NCBI GenBank assembly: GCA_021797515.1
Contig: JAJZZP010000036.1
Location: 1 to 64,000 of the forward strand
Source of the DNA: Bacillota bacterium
GTDB taxonomy: Bacteria; Bacillota; Sulfobacillia; Sulfobacillales; Sulfobacillaceae
Direction of reading: 5' to 3'
DNA: 64,000 nucleotides
Made by a program: the position numbers and the translations under genes. The notes under the pieces were generated by a model, which did not search any database, was not told where the DNA came from, and was given only the letters and a program-made list of their open reading frames with translations. Below, one piece after another: positions 55,851 through 64,000 of the stretch; position 1 is the stretch's first letter; each line of letters starts with the position of its first letter.

Positions 55851-57170
55851 ATGAAACCTGATACATTTACGCTCGGCCAAAATCGACAGATATCAATTGG
55901 CGGCGTCACATTGGCTTATTTGGCGGAGAAATATGGAACCCCGCTTTACGTGTTAGATTATGAGACGATTGTGCGCCGTATTCGAGATTACAAAGATGCG
56001 TTAAATGAGTTGTGCTCGCCCGGACAAGCCTTTTATGCCGGCAAAGCTTTTCTCTGCCAAGCCATGGCAGGACTGTTGGACCAACACCAAATGGGTCTAG
56101 ATGTGGTATCTGGAGGCGAGTTATACACGGCATTACAGGCGGGGTTCACCCCGGAACGGATTATGTTCCATGGCAATGTCAAAACCCGCGAAGAAATTGC
56201 CTACGCCTTAACCGCGCAAGTGGGCCATATTGTCTGCGACTCGATGGATGAACTGGAACGCATTGAGGAGGAAGCGGCTCGTCTGGGGTGCCTGGCGCCA
56301 GTGTTGTTGCGGATAACCCCGGGAATAGAAGCGCACACCCATGAGTTTATCCGTACTGGACAATTCGATTCCAAGTTTGGATTTGGGTTGGCGGATGGCT
56401 TGGCAGACCGCGCAGTAGAACGAGCTTTGGACCTTGAACATGTGATGTTAAAAGGACTTCATGCGCATATCGGGTCCCAAATTCTCGAGGAAGACCCCTT
56501 TGTCATGAACACCGAAACTTTACTGCGCTATGGCCTTGACTGGAATCGTAGCCGCGGTTGGTGGCCAGAAGTGCTGAATATTGGAGGCGGCTTCGGGATT
56601 CGGTACCAGCCAGGGGATCATCCGCCGCGGTTGACCACTGTGGTCAGCGCGATTAATGAATTGCTGCTCCATTTAACGCCTAAAGAGCTCCCTGTTCCCA
56701 GGATCTTTATGGAACCCGGCCGCTCGATTATTGCGGAAGCTGGAGTTACCTTATACCGGGTATTGGTCAAAAAATCGGTTCCTGGAGGTAAGCACTACCT
56801 TGCAGTCGACGGAGGCATGGGAGACAATATCCGCCCAGCTTTGTATCAGGCGGAATACAGGGCGGCCATTGATGGCAAAGTGGACCGGGCCGACATGGAA
56901 ACGGTAACTGTTGCCGGGCGCTACTGCGAAACCGGTGACGTGCTAATGAAGGACATTACTCTGCCTGTGGCGGCGGTAGGGGATCTTCTGGTGGTGTTTG
57001 ACACCGGCGCGTACAATTATTCGATGGCATCCAACTACAATCGGGTTCCGAGGCCCGCAGTGGTATTGGTGCATCAAGGCCAGGACTATCTATGGGTTGC
57101 CCGTGAATCCTATCAAGATTTGATTCGCGCAGACAATCCGTATGCCATGACGGCAGCCGAGCATCGGTAA
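55851..57170 (+). CDS. lysA: Diaminopimelate decarboxylase
   Basis: LysA makes L-lysine from meso-diaminopimelate using PLP. The 439-residue protein has the PLP lysine in FYAGKAFLC (Lys65), glycine loop GGGFGIRYQPGD, phosphate/dimer site EPGRSIIAEAG and CETGDVL with the catalytic cysteine. Start ATG follows AGGGAGGCACC. The gene follows spoVAF as in Bacillus subtilis. Confidence 0.96.
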   Translation: MKPDTFTLGQNRQISIGGVTLAYLAEKYGTPLYVLDYETIVRRIRDYKDALNELCSPGQAFYAGKAFLCQAMAGLLDQHQMGLDVVSGGELYTALQAGFTPERIMFHGNVKTREEIAYALTAQVGHIVCDSMDELERIEEEAARLGCLAPVLLRITPGIEAHTHEFIRTGQFDSKFGFGLADGLADRAVERALDLEHVMLKGLHAHIGSQILEEDPFVMNTETLLRYGLDWNRSRGWWPEVLNIGGGFGIRYQPGDHPPRLTTVVSAINELLLHLTPKELPVPRIFMEPGRSIIAEAGVTLYRVLVKKSVPGGKHYLAVDGGMGDNIRPALYQAEYRAAIDGKVDRADMETVTVAGRYCETGDVLMKDITLPVAAVGDLLVVFDTGAYNYSMASNYNRVPRPAVVLVHQGQDYLWVARESYQDLIRADNPYAMTAAEHR

Positions 57171-57173
57171 CCA

Positions 57174-57845
57174 ATGGCAGAAATCGCGCAATCTATTAAT
57201 GATTTAGCAGAACGAGTGCGGCGGCATCCTGAACTGGCGTTGTCGCTTGAGGTGCTCGGCCTGGTGCGCCATTATCAGGCGCGGTGGAAAGAAGCGCATG
57301 ACTTGTTGGATGTTACCGATGAAGTGCCAGTTACCGCGTGGGTTGTGCGGAGAAAATCAGATATGCTGTTGCCCCGGCCCATTAACCAAGATGAGGGAGT
57401 CGTCAACGAATCGCCACGAGGAGACACCGCGTTTTGGCTTAACTCGGCAGTAGCAGCTCTTCAGGAACGATTTCAAATGGCAGCCCAAACCCACAAGCGG
57501 CCCCCCGCCATTGCCCCCAATCGGGTCACAGCGGTTAAGGATGCCACGCTACGGAAATTGGCTTGGTCGTGGCCCAAGGTAAAGCCGCCGGCGAGCCGCC
57601 CGGTTCAGATAATACATCCGGACCCGGATCCAATAGGGGATCGCCTGCGGCGGATTCGAGCCCACCTTCGAGGAGTGTCTTCACCGGTGGCGCTGACCGC
57701 TCTTATGGATTCCAATGCACCCCGGGAGACAGTGCTAACCTTTTCTGCAGTTGTTCAGTTGTGGCACCAAGATGAAATAGATGTGAGTCAAAGTGCCCCG
57801 TTTCAACCGGTGTGGATTGTGAGGAACAGTCGTCATGACGCATAA
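57174..57845 (+). CDS. scpA: Segregation and condensation protein A (divergent ScpA)
   Basis: The 223-residue protein is recognised mainly by its position before scpB and by its C-terminal winged helix, LTFSAVVQLWHQDEIDVSQS then FQPVWI, which in ScpA binds the SMC head. The N-terminal part lacks the usual opening FEGPLDLLLHLI and looks divergent (INDLAERVRRHPELALSLEV). It is shorter than the usual 240-260 residues. ScpA bridges the two SMC heads in chromosome condensation. It starts 4 bases after lysA and overlaps scpB by 11. Confidence 0.75.
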   Translation: MAEIAQSINDLAERVRRHPELALSLEVLGLVRHYQARWKEAHDLLDVTDEVPVTAWVVRRKSDMLLPRPINQDEGVVNESPRGDTAFWLNSAVAALQERFQMAAQTHKRPPAIAPNRVTAVKDATLRKLAWSWPKVKPPASRPVQIIHPDPDPIGDRLRRIRAHLRGVSSPVALTALMDSNAPRETVLTFSAVVQLWHQDEIDVSQSAPFQPVWIVRNSRHDA

Positions 57846-58365
57846 GCTTAGCCGAAAATTGGAAGCGATCCTGTTTCTGAATGGAGATCCGGTCCCCTTG
57901 AGCCAAATTGCAGCATGGCTTGATGTTGATGTGGATCAAGTACTAGCGGTTGGTCATGAATTAAACCAAGTGTTTGACAGCCACCACTCGGCGCTTTGGG
58001 TTCAGGTGGTGGGCGACGCCATGGCACTGGCTACCGATTCTGAACTAGACGCCTGGGTACGGGAACGAATGACCATTAAAACGGCTGAACCGCTATCTCA
58101 TGCAGCCTGGGAAGTGCTCTCAATCGTGGCCTACAAACAGCCAGTCACTCGGTTGGAAATTGAAGCCGTGCGCCAAGTGGGATCGGAGCGGGCTATCGAA
58201 ACCTTGGTGGTGCGTGGACTCATTGAAGAAATTGACCGCAAGGACACCCCTGGACGTCCAATCTTATATGGAACCACCCACTCTTTCCTGCTTGAATTTG
58301 GTTTGACGGATTTGTCCCAATTGCCTGCGCTTGATAATTCCCCTAACTTCCCCGGTATAAAATAG
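57835..58365 (+). CDS. scpB: Segregation and condensation protein B
   Basis: The 176-residue protein has two winged-helix domains. It begins KLEAILFLNGDPVPLSQIAA and ends with the conserved WEVLSIVAYKQPVTRLEIEA, VLRTLVVRGLIEE-like TLVVRGLIEEIDRKDTPGRP and YGTTHSFLLEFGL. ScpB dimers clasp ScpA in the SMC complex for chromosome segregation. Length is as usual. Confidence 0.93.
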   Translation: MTHKLSRKLEAILFLNGDPVPLSQIAAWLDVDVDQVLAVGHELNQVFDSHHSALWVQVVGDAMALATDSELDAWVRERMTIKTAEPLSHAAWEVLSIVAYKQPVTRLEIEAVRQVGSERAIETLVVRGLIEEIDRKDTPGRPILYGTTHSFLLEFGLTDLSQLPALDNSPNFPGIK

Positions 58366-58415: not shown

Positions 58416-59003
58416 ATGGTTGCCATGGCAATATCTATCACTCTGACGTTGGCTTTAATCGGCGCCATTCTCATCCTTCTGAGGCAACCGCTAACCTTTC
58501 AAGTGTGGATACATGGCGGAGGCATCACCTGGGAGATGGGTTTTGCTATCCGCTGGCTTATTTTTGTTATGGGGGATTCCTGGCAAATACCGCGTTCCCC
58601 TGCAGCTCAAACCCAACCAGGGATGTCTTTTGACCCCAAACGTATCCGCAAGGGGTGGCATGTTCTCGGATGGTATCGGAGATTTGTGGAAGTGTTGTGG
58701 TGTCGATGTCAGGTGACAAATTTTTCAGTCCATGCCGAATTTGGATTGGGTGAGGCATCGGATACCGGATTAGTTTTCGGCATGGTGGTCGGTGGCATTG
58801 GATGGTGGCTTACGCACCGCATACAACCGCAAGCCATTACGCTGCCAGTAATGGATGTGGAACCAGCATGGGATCGTGCGGCCTTTTCCGGTCAACTGAG
58901 AGGGGAATTTAAGGTTGAGCCGCGCGCCATCTTGTTTTCACTCTTGACAAGTTTGGCGACTAAACAAGTTTTGGTTAATAAACAGGTATACAAGGAGGTT
59001 TAA
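58416..59003 (+). CDS. DUF2953-family membrane protein
   Basis: The 195-residue protein starts with a hydrophobic helix (ISITLTLALIGAILILL) and contains NFSVHAEFGLGEASDTGLVF followed by GMVVGGIGWWL, the DUF2953 pattern, then IQPQAITLPVMDVEPAWDRA and FSGQLRGEFKVEPRAIL. DUF2953 proteins are usually found upstream of ytfJ, as here (2 bases before), and function in the spore. The length is normal. Confidence 0.85.
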   Translation: MVAMAISITLTLALIGAILILLRQPLTFQVWIHGGGITWEMGFAIRWLIFVMGDSWQIPRSPAAQTQPGMSFDPKRIRKGWHVLGWYRRFVEVLWCRCQVTNFSVHAEFGLGEASDTGLVFGMVVGGIGWWLTHRIQPQAITLPVMDVEPAWDRAAFSGQLRGEFKVEPRAILFSLLTSLATKQVLVNKQVYKEV

Positions 59004-59005
59004 CT

Positions 59006-59455
59006 ATGGATACAGATGCAACGATGGCACACACCGGTAGTCATCCCATTGAGTCGCTGATGAAAACGGCGATGGAATCCATTAAAGGGATGATTGACGT
59101 AAATACGGTGGTTGGGGAAGCCGTTCAGACTCCGGATGGAGGGACCATTATTCCCATTTCTCGGGTGTCGTTTGGCTTTGCAGCTGGAGGCGGGGAATAT
59201 TGGAGTCGAGTGTCAGACTCTCCGGGCCATCCTTTTGGCGGTGGTAGCGGGGCAGGCGTTACGGTGCATCCGGTGGGTTTTTTGGTCGCTCATGGCGACA
59301 ATATTCGACTTTTGTCTGTGGAACGTGGAGATTTGGTCGATTCGATAGTGAACAATGCGTCGCAAATTATTGATCAGGTGCAGGGATGGGTAGCGCATCG
59401 TCAAGAATCGCATACCGATACTCCTACCATCATCGATCCGCATTCCTTGTCATAG
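59006..59455 (+). CDS. ytfJ: GerW/YtfJ family sporulation protein
   Basis: The 149-residue soluble protein has SLMKTAMESIKGMIDVNTVV-like start, GEAVQTPDGGTIIPISRVSF and the glycine-rich GFAAGGGEYWSR then GGGSGAGVTVHPVGFLV, the hallmarks of GerW/YtfJ, which is needed for L-alanine germination in Bacillus. AAGGAGG precedes the ATG by 5 bases. A terminator follows its stop codon. Confidence 0.94.
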   Translation: MDTDATMAHTGSHPIESLMKTAMESIKGMIDVNTVVGEAVQTPDGGTIIPISRVSFGFAAGGGEYWSRVSDSPGHPFGGGSGAGVTVHPVGFLVAHGDNIRLLSVERGDLVDSIVNNASQIIDQVQGWVAHRQESHTDTPTIIDPHSLS

Positions 59456-59488: not shown

Positions 59489-59557
59489 GCCCAATATTTT
59501 CCGAAATAACTTTTTGCGTTTGGCACACCCTGAATGTAAGTGGGAAGGGGTGGTCAG

Positions 59558-60340
59558 GTGCGGAGCATGTATAAGGGTGTTTTGGGATTTGGACTGGTGT
59601 CGATTCCAATTCAGTTATACAAAGCCTTTGACGAGGAACGGATCGAAATGCACTGGGTGCATACCGTCTGCGGCACTCGAGTGCGTTATCAAAAAATCTG
59701 CCCTGTGTGCCAGGTTACATTAAGCTCCAAGGACATAACAAAGGCGGTCCCTTTGCCTGACGGGAGATACGTGCCTCTAACGTCAGAGTCCGAGCCGATA
59801 GCCGACCTCGACCATACGATTACCATTTTGAATTTTCACCCACTGCAAGATGTGGATCCGGTATTTTACCAACAATCATACTGGGTGAAGCCGCAAGCTG
59901 GAGGTCATAAACCGTACCGGCTACTCGTTGAGACCATGGATTCGGTGGGACAAGTGGCGTTAGCCCAGATGATGCTGCGCAGCAAGTCTCGTTTGGCGGT
60001 GGTTCGCCCTTTCAATCACACGGTACTGATGCTTCACGGGATGCACTATCCGGAGTCTTTGCGAACGGAAGGGGCTGAAATTGGTAGCCCCAGTGTCGCG
60101 ATTTCCGGTGCCGAGCGCGAGATGGCCATACGTCTGATTCAACAAATGACGGGTCCTTTCATTCCTGAGCAATATCCCAACCAAGAACGACAGCGATTGT
60201 TACAAGAAATTGAACGATTGATGCCTAGTGCCCGTACCCCGGAGTTGCCAAATCAGGCCTCCGAAGAAGTCTTGGATCTAATGGCTCAACTTAGGGAATC
60301 GATTGCCCGCAAAACCGGTAGTGGCCAAGGTGTGTCATGA
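59558..60340 (+). CDS. ku: Ku protein (non-homologous end joining)
   Basis: Ku rings onto DNA ends and recruits the ligase LigD. The protein from GTG 59558 begins VRSMYKGVLGFGLVSIPIQL, which parallels the canonical MRSIWKGxxxFGLVxIPV start, so I prefer it to the ATG at 59567; AAGGGG lies 7 bases upstream. Further signatures are MHWVHTVCGTRVRYQKICPV and VKPQAGGHKPYRLLVETMDS and a C-terminal extension. Length (260) is as in bacterial Ku. Its stop overlaps the ligase gene. Confidence 0.93.
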   Translation: MRSMYKGVLGFGLVSIPIQLYKAFDEERIEMHWVHTVCGTRVRYQKICPVCQVTLSSKDITKAVPLPDGRYVPLTSESEPIADLDHTITILNFHPLQDVDPVFYQQSYWVKPQAGGHKPYRLLVETMDSVGQVALAQMMLRSKSRLAVVRPFNHTVLMLHGMHYPESLRTEGAEIGSPSVAISGAEREMAIRLIQQMTGPFIPEQYPNQERQRLLQEIERLMPSARTPELPNQASEEVLDLMAQLRESIARKTGSGQGVS

Positions 60341-61182
60341 ATCGGGATCCCGCAGAATTCATTCCACCAATGCTGGGGGTGACTGCCAAGGCGCCGTTCG
60401 ATTCCGAAGACTGGTGGTTTGAAGTCAAATGGGACGGATTTCGTGCGATAATCAGCAATGTTCGCGAATTCAAGATGTTTTCTCGACGAGGTGACAATCT
60501 ACTGAAATGGTTTCCCGACCTGGCTCAGCTGAGTGAAATTCTCCCTCGGGGAACAGTTGTCGACGGCGAGGTAGTGGCATGGGATAATGGTGGTCCTTCG
60601 TTCACGGCGTTGCAAAGCCGCTGGCCGGTGCCGCATGTAGCCATCGCCTTTGATTGCCTGTTCAGTGAAGGGCAATGGCACTTGCACGAACCGTTTCACC
60701 GTCGCCGAGAATATCTGGAAAATTTGCCTATTCAAGCGCATTCCGCATTGGTAGTTTCCCAAGGCGTCACTGGCCATGGGATCGACCTTTTCCGGGCGGC
60801 GAGGGCGGCACAATTGGAAGGCGTCATGGCTAAACTTCACAGTAGCCGTTATTGGCCGGGTAAACGTGTTGAATATTGGCAAAAATTTTTATCTATGCGT
60901 CGCGACTGGTTTTTCGTATCCAGAATTGCCAAATTGTCCACAGGTCATTGGCAATGGGGGCTCGCCGAGGATCCGGACGGCCCCCTAGTTTCCAAGGTCA
61001 TGGCACCGGCCGATTGGAATCTAGAACCATTGGGCGGCAACCTACGCGCCCTGCGAGTGGAAGTAGAATACCGGGAGAGAACAAAGGGGGGACGACTACG
61101 CCATGCGCGTATACGGCGATGGCGATCAGATGGTGTGGAAGGGAATCACGGTGAAGCACCCCAACCGGATCGTCTATCCTGA
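60337..61182 (+). CDS. ligD: LigD-type ATP-dependent DNA ligase
   Basis: This 281-residue protein has the nucleotidyltransferase domain (motif I EVKWDGFR with the adenylated Lys31, motif III VDGEVVAWD, motif IV GVMAKLHSS, motif V region WQKFLSMR) and an OB-like C-terminal part (RVEVEYRERTKGGRLRHARI). It corresponds to the ligase portion of LigD, here a separate gene. It overlaps ku by 4 bases and the polymerase gene by about 80. Confidence 0.93.
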   Translation: MNRDPAEFIPPMLGVTAKAPFDSEDWWFEVKWDGFRAIISNVREFKMFSRRGDNLLKWFPDLAQLSEILPRGTVVDGEVVAWDNGGPSFTALQSRWPVPHVAIAFDCLFSEGQWHLHEPFHRRREYLENLPIQAHSALVVSQGVTGHGIDLFRAARAAQLEGVMAKLHSSRYWPGKRVEYWQKFLSMRRDWFFVSRIAKLSTGHWQWGLAEDPDGPLVSKVMAPADWNLEPLGGNLRALRVEVEYRERTKGGRLRHARIRRWRSDGVEGNHGEAPQPDRLS

Positions 61183-61960
61183 TCTGGGTCTGACACGGAT
61201 TGAGGTGATGACCTACTACGACGGTGTAGCAGACGTGATGATTCCGCACATGAGGGAGCGAGCGATCACTCTGAAACGCTGGACCGAAGATATTGTCGGT
61301 CCCGTGTTTTATCAAAAGCATTTCGCGAATCAACCGATTAGAATTGAACATTCTCATGAGTTGTTGCAATGGGTGGCGCTGGGCACCCTAGAATTCCACG
61401 TGCCATTGGGGCTCCTGGATCGTCCTCTCCAACATGATTGGGCTGTGCTGGATTTGGATCCTCCTCAAAACTGTCTGTGGTCAGAGGTGGCACAGGCAGC
61501 TCGTGCGGTAGCCGCGTTGTGGGAACATCTGGCAGTTCCCTTCATAATGAAAACGTCCGGTGGCAAAGGCGTACACTTTTATATTCCGATCGAACCTCAA
61601 GACCATCGATCCGTTGTGTATTGGATGAAGAGTTTGGCCACACTACTGGCAATCACATTCCCGGAATCCCTGACCGTGGAGCGATTAAAGGCCCGACGGA
61701 GGAACCGGATTTATCTTGATTATTTGCAAAATGGGTCTCAGCGCACCATGATCGGGGTCTATAGTATGCGGGCCACCCAGGCGGCTACTGTGTCCACACC
61801 GATACGTCTTGAGGAATTGGGATTTGAGCCCAGTTATTGGACGCCGGTTCGAGTACTGCCCCGAGTGGCTCAAGGGGACGATTTGTTTTGTGCCAAGACT
61901 CCCCGCTGCCGGTTGGAGGATGTGGTGGAGCGATATAACTTGCTACCAAACCTGAGGTGA
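61103..61960 (+). CDS. LigD-type polymerase/primase domain protein
   Basis: The 285-residue protein is the PolDom of LigD, which fills gaps at broken ends: KGITVKHPNRIVYPDLGLTR, the catalytic DLDPPQNC, MKTSGGKGVHFYIPI and IYLDYLQNGSQRTMIGVYSM carry its metal and nucleotide-binding motifs. The 80-base overlap with the ligase gene (an ATG at 61130 would cut it to about 53) indicates coupled expression. In many bacteria these domains are fused. Confidence 0.92.
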   Translation: MRVYGDGDQMVWKGITVKHPNRIVYPDLGLTRIEVMTYYDGVADVMIPHMRERAITLKRWTEDIVGPVFYQKHFANQPIRIEHSHELLQWVALGTLEFHVPLGLLDRPLQHDWAVLDLDPPQNCLWSEVAQAARAVAALWEHLAVPFIMKTSGGKGVHFYIPIEPQDHRSVVYWMKSLATLLAITFPESLTVERLKARRRNRIYLDYLQNGSQRTMIGVYSMRATQAATVSTPIRLEELGFEPSYWTPVRVLPRVAQGDDLFCAKTPRCRLEDVVERYNLLPNLR

Positions 61961-61964
61961 GCTC

Positions 61965-63539
61965 GTGATACAGGATGTGGATGAAATGGAAAGACTTCCA
62001 ATTGTACGCCTACAAGCATGGCCGCAACTGAAGTCTCATGTAGGGCGGGGGCTTGATGTCCATGACTATCAAATTGATAGTGTCTTAAAGGTCGTCAATC
62101 AACTGGACGGGCGTGCAATTTTAGCGGATGAAGTGGGATTAGGCAAAACTATTGAAGCGGGATTAATTATTGCCGAATTAAAAGCCAGGGGATTAATCGA
62201 GCAAGTTCTGATTTTAGTGCCGGCCGGTCTCATTAGCCAATGGATTTCCGAGTTGCAAGAGAAATTTGGATGGACCGCGATGAGAAGTCCTCATGATCGG
62301 GGATGGCTGTGGGTATTATCGATAGACAGTGCCAAGCGTGGATCCTTGTCACACCAGTTGCAATTTGTGACCTGGGACATGGTAATAGTCGATGAGGCTC
62401 ATCACTTAAAAAACAATCGCACCCAAAATTACGAGTTGGTTGCTGGGCTAAAGGCACGATATATGGTGTTGCTGACGGCCACCCCCATGGAAAACCAACT
62501 GACAGAACTCTATACCTTGGTGAATTTAGTTAAACCTGGATTGTTCGGACCTTACCTGAGATTTTATCGGCAATTTATTTTAGACAAGCGAACCCCGAAA
62601 AATGCTGAGGCCTTAAGGAAGTTATTGTCACAAGTCATGGTCCGCAACCAAAGACAGACCGTTGGCATCGACTTTGTATCCCGGGAGGTCACACTATGGC
62701 CGATTACGTTAAGTCAAAAAGAAAGATTGCTTTACGATGAATTGACGCGGGTGCTGCGCTATGAGTATCGTCATCGTGTGGGTCAGGACACGGTGCTGCC
62801 GCTAATTATGATGCAACGGGAAATTTGTTCCTCACCTCACTCCTTGGTCCCCACCTTAAAAAACGCGGAGTGGATGGGTTCGATCCGACAGGATTTGGTT
62901 GCACTGGCGGAATCCATAGAGGTTACTGCGAAAGCCGAGTCGGTTGCCCAGATGCTGCCCCATTTACCAGGACAAGTATTGATTTTTACCGAATATCGCG
63001 CCACACAAGATATGCTGGTCAATTACTTAAACACTATGGGATTTCCATCCAGGGCATTTCATGGAGGGCTAAGGGGGAAAGAACGAGACGCTCTGATTGA
63101 ATGGTTTCGCTCCCAACCTTCGGTTTTAGTATCGACGGAAGCGGGGGGACAGGGAATTAACCTGCAATTTTGTCATCAATTGATAAACTTCGACTTGCCT
63201 TGGAATCCCATGCGCATCGAACAGCGAATTGGGCGAGTGCACCGTATTGGGCAGCAGCATCCGGTGGAGATTTATAACCTGCTTACCGTGGAAACCGTAG
63301 AAGAAGATATTTTGCGACTGCTGCACGAAAAAATCGACCTGTTTCGACAGGTAGTGGGCGAACTTGACATCATATTACGCCACTTGGAAAAGCGGGGAAG
63401 TCTAGAAAGCCGACTTCTAGATATTTTCTTCTGGGAAGACGACCGATCAGAGATCGAAGCGCGATTGGATGCTTTGGGCAATGAATTTATTGCGGTTCGT
63501 AAACGATTAATCTGGCCGTCTTCGAAACCCGGACTGTAG
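61965..63539 (+). CDS. SNF2-family helicase (YqhH/RapA-like)
   Basis: The 524-residue ATPase has SNF2 motifs: DEVGLGKT (Walker A, 55-62), VDEAHHLKN (DEAH), LLTATPMENQLTELYTLVNL, LIFTEYRATQDMLV and GGQGINLQFCHQLINFDLPW with MRIEQRIGRVHRIGQ. It moves along double-stranded DNA and may clear proteins from ends or RNA polymerase; a YqhH-like gene is known in Bacillus. Start GTG 61965 follows TGAGGTGAG. It is 4 bases after the polymerase gene, so it is part of the same operon. Confidence 0.92.
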   Translation: MIQDVDEMERLPIVRLQAWPQLKSHVGRGLDVHDYQIDSVLKVVNQLDGRAILADEVGLGKTIEAGLIIAELKARGLIEQVLILVPAGLISQWISELQEKFGWTAMRSPHDRGWLWVLSIDSAKRGSLSHQLQFVTWDMVIVDEAHHLKNNRTQNYELVAGLKARYMVLLTATPMENQLTELYTLVNLVKPGLFGPYLRFYRQFILDKRTPKNAEALRKLLSQVMVRNQRQTVGIDFVSREVTLWPITLSQKERLLYDELTRVLRYEYRHRVGQDTVLPLIMMQREICSSPHSLVPTLKNAEWMGSIRQDLVALAESIEVTAKAESVAQMLPHLPGQVLIFTEYRATQDMLVNYLNTMGFPSRAFHGGLRGKERDALIEWFRSQPSVLVSTEAGGQGINLQFCHQLINFDLPWNPMRIEQRIGRVHRIGQQHPVEIYNLLTVETVEEDILRLLHEKIDLFRQVVGELDIILRHLEKRGSLESRLLDIFFWEDDRSEIEARLDALGNEFIAVRKRLIWPSSKPGL

Positions 63540-63650
63540 CCAACTGAGCGTCAAATCGATAAACTGAAATCTAGGGCCGGGAGATATAGACCCGATGGGT
63601 GCTCGTGGAATGGCAGAAAAACTGAAAATGGTGGTGAGTGTGGGCCGGGT

Positions 63651-63830
63651 TTGCTAATACCGCTTTCGGCCTTTTGGCTCATCTGGCGGCAGGTGGTCCC
63701 GTTTATCGGAACTCGACGGATTTCCGCTGAAAAGATTGGAGAATCGATGCGTTCCCAACAATACCGGGAATTATCGCTAGGAGGCAGAGATATGATGGTC
63801 GGGGATGATAGCAATGACTCCTCTGTCTGA
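63651..63830 (+). CDS. Possible small membrane protein
   Basis: A TTG at 63651 opens a 59-residue frame with one hydrophobic segment (LLIPLSAFWLIWRQVVPFIG) followed by a polar region (RRISAEKIGESMRSQQYREL). The frame is the same as that of the helicase upstream and is open all the way from the helicase stop codon. It overlaps the following gene by 17 bases. I have no family for it and the start signal is weak, so its existence is doubtful. Confidence 0.35.
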   Translation: MLIPLSAFWLIWRQVVPFIGTRRISAEKIGESMRSQQYRELSLGGRDMMVGDDSNDSSV

Positions 63831-64000
63831 ACGAGATAGGCGGACACTGCGCGAGATGTTTCGGGATTTGAAATTTCCGGTGCATCTGGAATTGTTTGTC
63901 GAGGAGGGTCATCAGTGGTCCCAGGATGCGGTGTTGTTGCTTCGCGACGTGGTACGCGTGATGCCGGACTTGCTGCGCCTAGAGATTTGGGACGTGGGCC
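63814..64000 (+). CDS. Thioredoxin-fold protein without redox cysteines, partial
   Basis: The gene runs off the right edge. The visible 62 residues, MTPLSERDRRTLREMFRDLK, FPVHLELFVEEGHQWSQDAV and LLLRDVVRVMPDLLRLEIWD, match the first thioredoxin-like domain of glutaredoxin-like/protein-disulfide oxidoreductase proteins, in which the segment after the LxLF strand reads CxxC. Here it reads HQWS and has no cysteine. Sequence after the edge would show whether a second domain retains CxxC. Confidence 0.6.
   Translation, partial: MTPLSERDRRTLREMFRDLKFPVHLELFVEEGHQWSQDAVLLLRDVVRVMPDLLRLEIWDVG

Follow-up and report, generated by a model that had tools for sequence, protein, structure and literature searches.

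The window studied here is a stretch of 64,000 nucleotides (nt) from an acid-loving, spore-forming Bacillota bacterium of the class Sulfobacillia (assembly GCA_021797515.1, contig JAJZZP010000036.1, positions 1 to 64,000 of the forward strand). Close to its 3' end lies a set of genes for non-homologous end joining (NHEJ), where ku, a LigD-type ligase, a LigD-type polymerase and a SNF2 ATPase of 524 amino acids (aa) are consecutive on the + strand, behind scpA, scpB, an open reading frame (ORF) called x here, and ytfJ. The features of the region are as follows:

54266, + strand: GerA, a profile-scan match upstream of the ORF called lysA
55851-57170, + strand: ORF upstream of scpA, a putative lysA
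57174..57845, + strand: scpA-like gene (segregation/condensation protein A), directly 5' of scpB; NCBIfam NF000995 at 27 bits, far below the cut-off of 315
57835..58365, + strand: scpB (SMC-ScpAB subunit); PF04079 154 bits, TIGR00281 105 bits, above the cut-off of 89
58416..59003, + strand: ORF x, 195 aa, between scpB and ytfJ, with phmmer relatives in the same place elsewhere
59006..59455, + strand: ytfJ/gerW, spore protein; TIGR02874 161 bits, above the cut-off of 116, PF09579 93 bits
59458..59488, + strand: hairpin between ytfJ and ku, candidate weak terminator; RNA fold -17.5 kcal/mol, z -3.2
59558..60340, + strand: ku, DNA end-binding protein; TIGR02772 220 bits, PF02735 133 bits
60337..61182, + strand: stand-alone LigD-type ATP-dependent DNA ligase; PF01068 94 bits
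61103..61960, + strand: stand-alone LigD-type primase-polymerase; PF21686 194 bits
61965..63539, + strand: SNF2 ATPase, 524 aa, a bare motor core; PF00176 131 bits, PF00271 85 bits

The ORF coordinates and domain scans bear out the original prediction, which had read Ku, ligase, polymerase and SNF2 genes in series: ku and the ligase gene overlap by 4 nt, the ligase and polymerase genes by up to 80 nt, and 4 nt separate the polymerase stop from the SNF2 gene. An identical gene order is found in Sulfobacillus benefaciens (L088), the closest named relative found, whose SNF2 protein is 97% identical. The ku ORF opens with the GTG at 59540, and its likely start is the GTG at 59558, which the ATG in G062, a sister genome, faces in the alignment; the product exceeds the TIGR02772 cut-off of 150 bits, which identifies it as a Ku-domain protein of bacterial NHEJ, and matches the solved bacterial Ku 9vnq (E 6e-42). 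The polymerase belongs with the LigD primase-polymerases according to PF21686 (cut-off 27), scores 192 bits with TIGR02778, under the cut-off of 215, and aligns with the solved LigD-type polymerase 2fao over LDLDP, TSGGKGxH and DYLxN, among others. Linked to Ku, the ligase is assigned to NHEJ as a LigD-type enzyme, with its OB domain PF04679 (24 bits) and TIGR02779 (126 bits) under their cut-offs of 27.5 and 228; its best solved match is the M. tuberculosis LigD ligase 1vs0, in an alignment that includes KWDG and EGVxAK. These stretches of both enzymes are presumably the catalytic ones, and the low NCBIfam scores are such as would be expected of divergent members. The genome of the window holds one Ku match and one PF01068 match.

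That the set adjoins spore genes had also been predicted, and this proved right well beyond the window, where ytfJ/gerW (TIGR02874) stands upstream. A sample of 101 genomes of the class comprised 83 with a Ku match, 84 with YtfJ and 26 with an orthologue of the SNF2 protein (a match at E 1e-140 or better); where a genome had several YtfJ matches the best one was taken, and ScpB matches that were weak or fragmentary were left out. In 66 of the 83 Ku genomes, Ku comes directly after YtfJ in the same orientation, the domain gap being 2.5 kb or less; these are 19 of the 24 that have SNF2 and 47 of the 59 without it. As for the remaining 17, ytfJ and Ku are on different contigs in 12 and 4.4 kb apart in one, and four lack a YtfJ match. 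Among these four, G016, G037 and G053 have Ku about 0.2 kb 3' of ScpB (directly after it in the stretches L215 and L216, of G016 and G053), and in G081 Ku and ScpB lie on different contigs. Across the class sample both proteins occur in 79 genomes, YtfJ only in five, Ku only in four and neither in 13 (Fisher p 2e-9, relatedness ignored).

A sample of 199 genomes of the phylum gave 121 with Ku, 114 of them outside the class. All seven class members in it have ytfJ and Ku adjacent. YtfJ is among the matches listed for 102 of the 114 other genomes, three have no YtfJ match and nine fall outside that listing; a ytfJ-Ku pair within 10 kb was found in none of the 102, of which 25 have both on the same contig, the nearest at 24.5 kb. 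In these samples the linkage is therefore a trait of the class. No report of a Ku linkage to ytfJ or scpAB was found in the accessible parts of the literature searched, which was chiefly open-access, nor anything relevant there that connects SNF2 with NHEJ in bacteria, or ytfJ or Sulfobacillus with end joining; PMC2587704 was set aside, since it concerns the unrelated HelZ.

The SNF2 gene follows ytfJ more faithfully than it follows the end-joining genes. For 25 of the 26 SNF2 orthologues in the class, YtfJ is found 0.1-4 kb upstream in the same orientation; the last one, in G038, is at a contig end. NHEJ genes stand between ytfJ and SNF2 in 19 loci; 17 of these include a ligase hit, and the other two, in G089 and G097, have just Ku and Pol there. 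They are absent from that position in six genomes, in five of which ytfJ and SNF2 abut (-17 to +43 nt), with 469 nt between them in the sixth, G073. Neither Ku nor Pol was matched anywhere in the genomes of G073 (88% complete) and G017 (99%); the other four (G088, G080, G050 and G072, of family f38) keep ytfJ-SNF2 and have Ku on another contig. As G073 is sister to G089 and G097 on the SNF2 tree (support 97), we infer a picture of stepwise loss of NHEJ in which SNF2 would have been kept. In the window's own order 42 genomes were available, 40 with SNF2, 37 with Ku, 36 with both and one (G298) with neither. Two members of the window's family, G306 and G307 (95-96% complete), carry lysA-scpA-scpB-x-ytfJ and, after a gap of 972 and 831 nt respectively, an intact SNF2 gene of 532 aa; neither genome gave a Ku match, and ligase or polymerase elsewhere in them was not searched for. 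Remnants of ku, lig or pol in these gaps were considered and rejected, the best tblastn hit (E 0.003, 25 bits) being on the opposite strand and taken as chance. The reverse case is G293, in the same order, with ytfJ-ku-lig-pol present and no SNF2 match at E 1e-120. G310 and G324, at 61% and 63% completeness, also have SNF2 and no Ku match, but the tally of losses excludes them; in G310, Pol-SNF2 stands at the end of a contig.

These losses bear directly on the suggestion of the original prediction that the helicase is joined to end joining as a functional part, which would make it a dedicated NHEJ helicase, clearing broken ends of proteins to let Ku and the ligase work. Its case is one of position. 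Of the 24 class genomes that carry both Ku and SNF2, 19 have SNF2 downstream of Ku, on one contig and in the same orientation. In the order, no more than 4 kb separates the two in 34 of 36 such genomes, and contig ends cut the cluster in the remaining two. Chance is therefore excluded for the gene set. Moreover, the gap from Pol to SNF2 is -11 to +83 nt in 20 loci, taking in every scorable locus the start codon nearest the upstream stop, which favours short gaps. However, SNF2 is present without Ku or Pol in G017 and G073 and without Ku in G306 and G307, the four f38 genomes have it apart from their Ku, and 59 of the 83 class Ku genomes (mostly drafts), as well as G293, have no SNF2 orthologue. 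The suggestion is thereby weakened, and we regard a dedicated end-joining helicase as unlikely. The original prediction had itself proposed looking for the helicase with another partner in close relatives, and by that test the functional link weakens: six class genomes together with G306 and G307 have ytfJ-SNF2 with no NHEJ genes between, and the homologues in the three Bacillales loci read are neighbours of YqhG. In favour of the link, the Ku-SNF2 pair is nearly always intact in the order. The proposed survey of gene neighbourhoods in spore formers found ytfJ-Ku in most Ku genomes of the class sample, but not SNF2 as a constant member. Since SNF2 keeps ytfJ while losing the NHEJ genes, it is probably not a dedicated end-joining part, and its place directly behind ytfJ in NHEJ-free loci, along with the many Ku genomes without it, indicates that it is no required NHEJ subunit.

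Altogether, we favour as rather probable a reading in which the NHEJ set is anchored to a class-conserved scpA-scpB-x-ytfJ cluster, serving as a forespore-type address, and SNF2 is a separate motor that shares the address. In B. subtilis, ykoUV is under sigma-G. The gene ytfJ appears under sigma-F in a table of PMC3416734, and a table of sporulation genes in PMC10294663 includes ykoV. Several points weigh against the favoured reading. Forespore timing of the locus is inferred from the B. subtilis ytfJ, and a single scpA-scpB-ytfJ transcript is putative. The window has 102 nt, hairpin included, between ytfJ and the start of ku, which could thus have a promoter of its own. Most genomes are drafts, and both the absences and the cases of genes on another contig depend on contig coverage. 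Finally, Ku and SNF2 are near-constantly paired in the order, as a functional pair would be, and with the pair nearly always intact there NHEJ and SNF2 may cooperate after all. As regards the junction, the same stem is found in S. benefaciens (L088) and a different sequence in G062, and the best-start gap between ytfJ and ku is -4 to +34 nt in 25 of the 54 class junctions scored. A terminator scan gave five hits in the region versus 6.8 in shuffles, hence no excess, and the promoter and terminator consensus scan was dropped as evidence because its hits did not rise above shuffles.

The hairpin and the 102-nt gap would also suit a neutral neighbourhood, where a single ancestral event put ku-lig-pol and SNF2 behind ytfJ and simple inheritance did the rest, with neither spore expression nor cooperation. 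The single clade formed by the SNF2 orthologues and a synteny confined to one class of the phylum sample agree with it; on the other hand, the order has been kept in most Ku genomes of the class though Ku has strongly diverged, and Ku is nearly confined to genomes with ytfJ (relatedness ignored), which makes mere inheritance quite improbable. Between the window and G062 identity is 66% for Ku and 85% for SNF2; the faster divergence of Ku is what a different constraint would lead one to expect, but helicase cores are conserved in any case. On the Ku tree the unlinked Ku proteins of f38 and of family f6, in which Ku and YtfJ are on different contigs, fall in clades of their own (SH-like approximate likelihood-ratio test, SH-aLRT, 100 each). 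The separate clade of f38 would fit either the loss of its ytfJ-linked set and the gain of another, or a move of that set followed by divergence. The Ku and SNF2 trees are quick searches with SH-aLRT and no bootstrap, the SNF2 tree being midpoint-rooted.

The SNF2 protein meets its family definition with both PF00176 and PF00271, and the motor motifs ADEVGLGKT, DEAH and QRIGRxHRxGQ are invariant in the 25 orthologues aligned (G038, at a contig end, was left out of the alignment and kept in the tree). Its AlphaFold2 model is a bare SNF2 core (pLDDT, predicted local distance difference test, 86; pTM, predicted template modelling score, 0.85). The best structure alignments are to SNF2 remodellers, with INO80 8oo9 at Z 30.6 (root-mean-square deviation, rmsd, 3.2 over 395 residues), and RapA 8t0l aligns over residues 1-522 (Z 27.1, rmsd 4.8, 472 residues). 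Its most likely work would be ATP-driven movement on duplex DNA, displacing bound protein. A phage-defence helicase was considered and rejected: the motor is hit by models of DrmD, DpdE, ZorD and BrxH, those from NCBIfam scoring far below their cut-offs (260 versus 610 bits for NF038317, the DISARM DrmD model), and the adjacent genes do not fit; a PADLOC scan of the adjacent Ku, Lig and Pol gave no match. The window's own genome has a second SNF2 gene of 730 aa, with a core 40% identical, overlapping by 8 nt a 355-aa gene that has no Pfam match above cut-off (the pair at L078:5983-9235, C70), and G062 carries a like pair (L079).

In a sequence comparison with solved structures, too, RapA comes first (E 1e-64), which raises the question of whether the protein is a YqhH/HepA-type factor that recycles RNA polymerase, its position having no meaning for repair. 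The nearest outside relatives include YqhH-type proteins of Bacillales (36-46% identical), and the three Bacillales loci read encode similarly short SNF2 proteins (559-587 aa, 43-46% identity), with YqhG next door. B. subtilis YqhH is called RapA-like and RNA polymerase-interacting (PMC7385302), and B. thuringiensis YqhH is reported to have ATPase and helicase activity, its knock-out being ultraviolet-sensitive (PMC10054049), whereas according to a 2025 review (PMC12448304) the counterpart of RapA in B. subtilis is YwqA and not YqhH. The 26 orthologues, however, form one clade (SH-aLRT 100), apart from the Bacillales YqhH-type proteins (also 100) and from ten class paralogues, of which nine to ten are about 40% identical; the tree took 45 of 79 further loci (one was under the score limit and 33 were dropped for size) and 10 of the 13 class paralogues. 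Furthermore, YqhG (PF11079), the neighbour of YqhH, has matches in none of the 101 class genomes and was rejected as a partner here, the neighbours of the class gene are different, and the score with the RapA equivalog NF003426 is 180 bits against a cut-off of 576. Compared with RapA, the SNF2 motor fold is shared, but full-length RapA chains in the PDB (966-974 aa) are about twice as long as the window protein, and its RapA-likeness is known from sequence and fold. A recycling role of this kind appears possible, if doubtful. Among the matches listed, Ku, Lig, Pol and YtfJ were found beside none of the 79 further SNF2 loci (up to 10 kb on each side, less on short contigs).

The original prediction of a split LigD is confirmed, the ligase and polymerase being separate ORFs instead of a conventional three-domain LigD, and the domain scan of the Ku, ligase, polymerase and SNF2 proteins found no phosphoesterase domain. 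A split LigD is already known: according to PMC1378119 and PMC7719229, Streptomyces coelicolor has stand-alone LigD domains, so that ligase and polymerase are likewise encoded apart, but in the window ku, lig and pol are in one cluster with spore and ScpAB genes. The Ku and LigD of B. subtilis (ykoV/ykoU; PMC1378119) resemble the window in their components, in having the ligase before the polymerase, in lacking a nuclease domain and in belonging to a spore former; unlike them, the window has two separate genes, and the set lies behind ytfJ and before SNF2. The overlap of about 80 bases predicted between ligase and polymerase stands if the latter starts at the ATG at 61103, but it depends on the start, falling to 53 or 32 nt with the in-frame alternatives at 61130 and 61151. 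In Pol the conserved HPNR motif starts at 61157, and the ligase stop ends 25 nt further on; in 8 of 10 loci scored (G006 and G095 were left unscored) the motif ranges from 103 nt before the stop (G032) to 23 nt after it (G087), lying 3' of the stop in G049, G087, G071 and G079. A long overlap is hence not a constant feature. A programmed frameshift restoring a fused LigD was rejected, since the overlap is variable and separate ORFs, found in most class loci read, are usual.

A fused LigD of 664 aa was confirmed in G060 of family f6. Stretches of that family (L217, L219, L221 and L222) show a long LigD ORF, some 640-660 aa, ahead of Ku and off the ytfJ contig, with the ligase-polymerase fusion confirmed in L217 only. 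In f38 (L070, L073, L075 and L077) and in L220 (G096) an opposite-strand ligase lies between ku and pol, off the ytfJ contig. G089 (L056:7447-9354) has Ku and the LigD polymerase in one 635-aa ORF (Ku 11-172, Pol 359-611), which may be an assembly frameshift error, and its sister G097 has them as two genes; neither draft genome (85-88% complete) gave a PF01068 ligase match. Regarding the neighbours, ORF x gave no match in Pfam and NCBIfam scans; its phmmer relatives occupy the same position in 7 of 40 fetched class stretches (26-189 bits), all from the window's family, and S. benefaciens also has a counterpart. On the 3' side of SNF2 (63551-64000) open frames run on both strands to the window end.

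In the proposed mechanism, Ku would hold the ends, the polymerase would fill gaps and the ligase would seal them, as homology to standard NHEJ suggests. Their place behind ytfJ would probably give ku-lig-pol a forespore-type expression, and the repair proteins would be ready in the germinating spore, whose single chromosome copy would leave recombination without a template. The SNF2 protein is probably a RapA/YqhH-like DNA translocase, not a dedicated end-joining part; it would move on duplex DNA, freeing the spore chromosome of bound protein such as RNA polymerase or the DNA-binding proteins of spores, and by sharing the expression address it may aid repair indirectly. A broader version, to which we give little credence, has a spore-chromosome maintenance operon whose ScpAB, GerW, end-joining and SNF2 proteins would be made together in the forespore, with SNF2 as a chromatin remodeller that clears spore proteins and gives NHEJ access at germination, and with a wider clearing job where NHEJ genes are absent.

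For a system of a known kind, the arrangement as a whole appears new, its less ordinary points being the linkage of ytfJ to Ku and the fact that SNF2 follows ytfJ. The natural deletions, with Ku gone and SNF2 kept as well as the reverse, let the two functions be separated, and a class that ties Ku, ligase and polymerase to scpAB-ytfJ provides natural evidence for end joining serving the spore.

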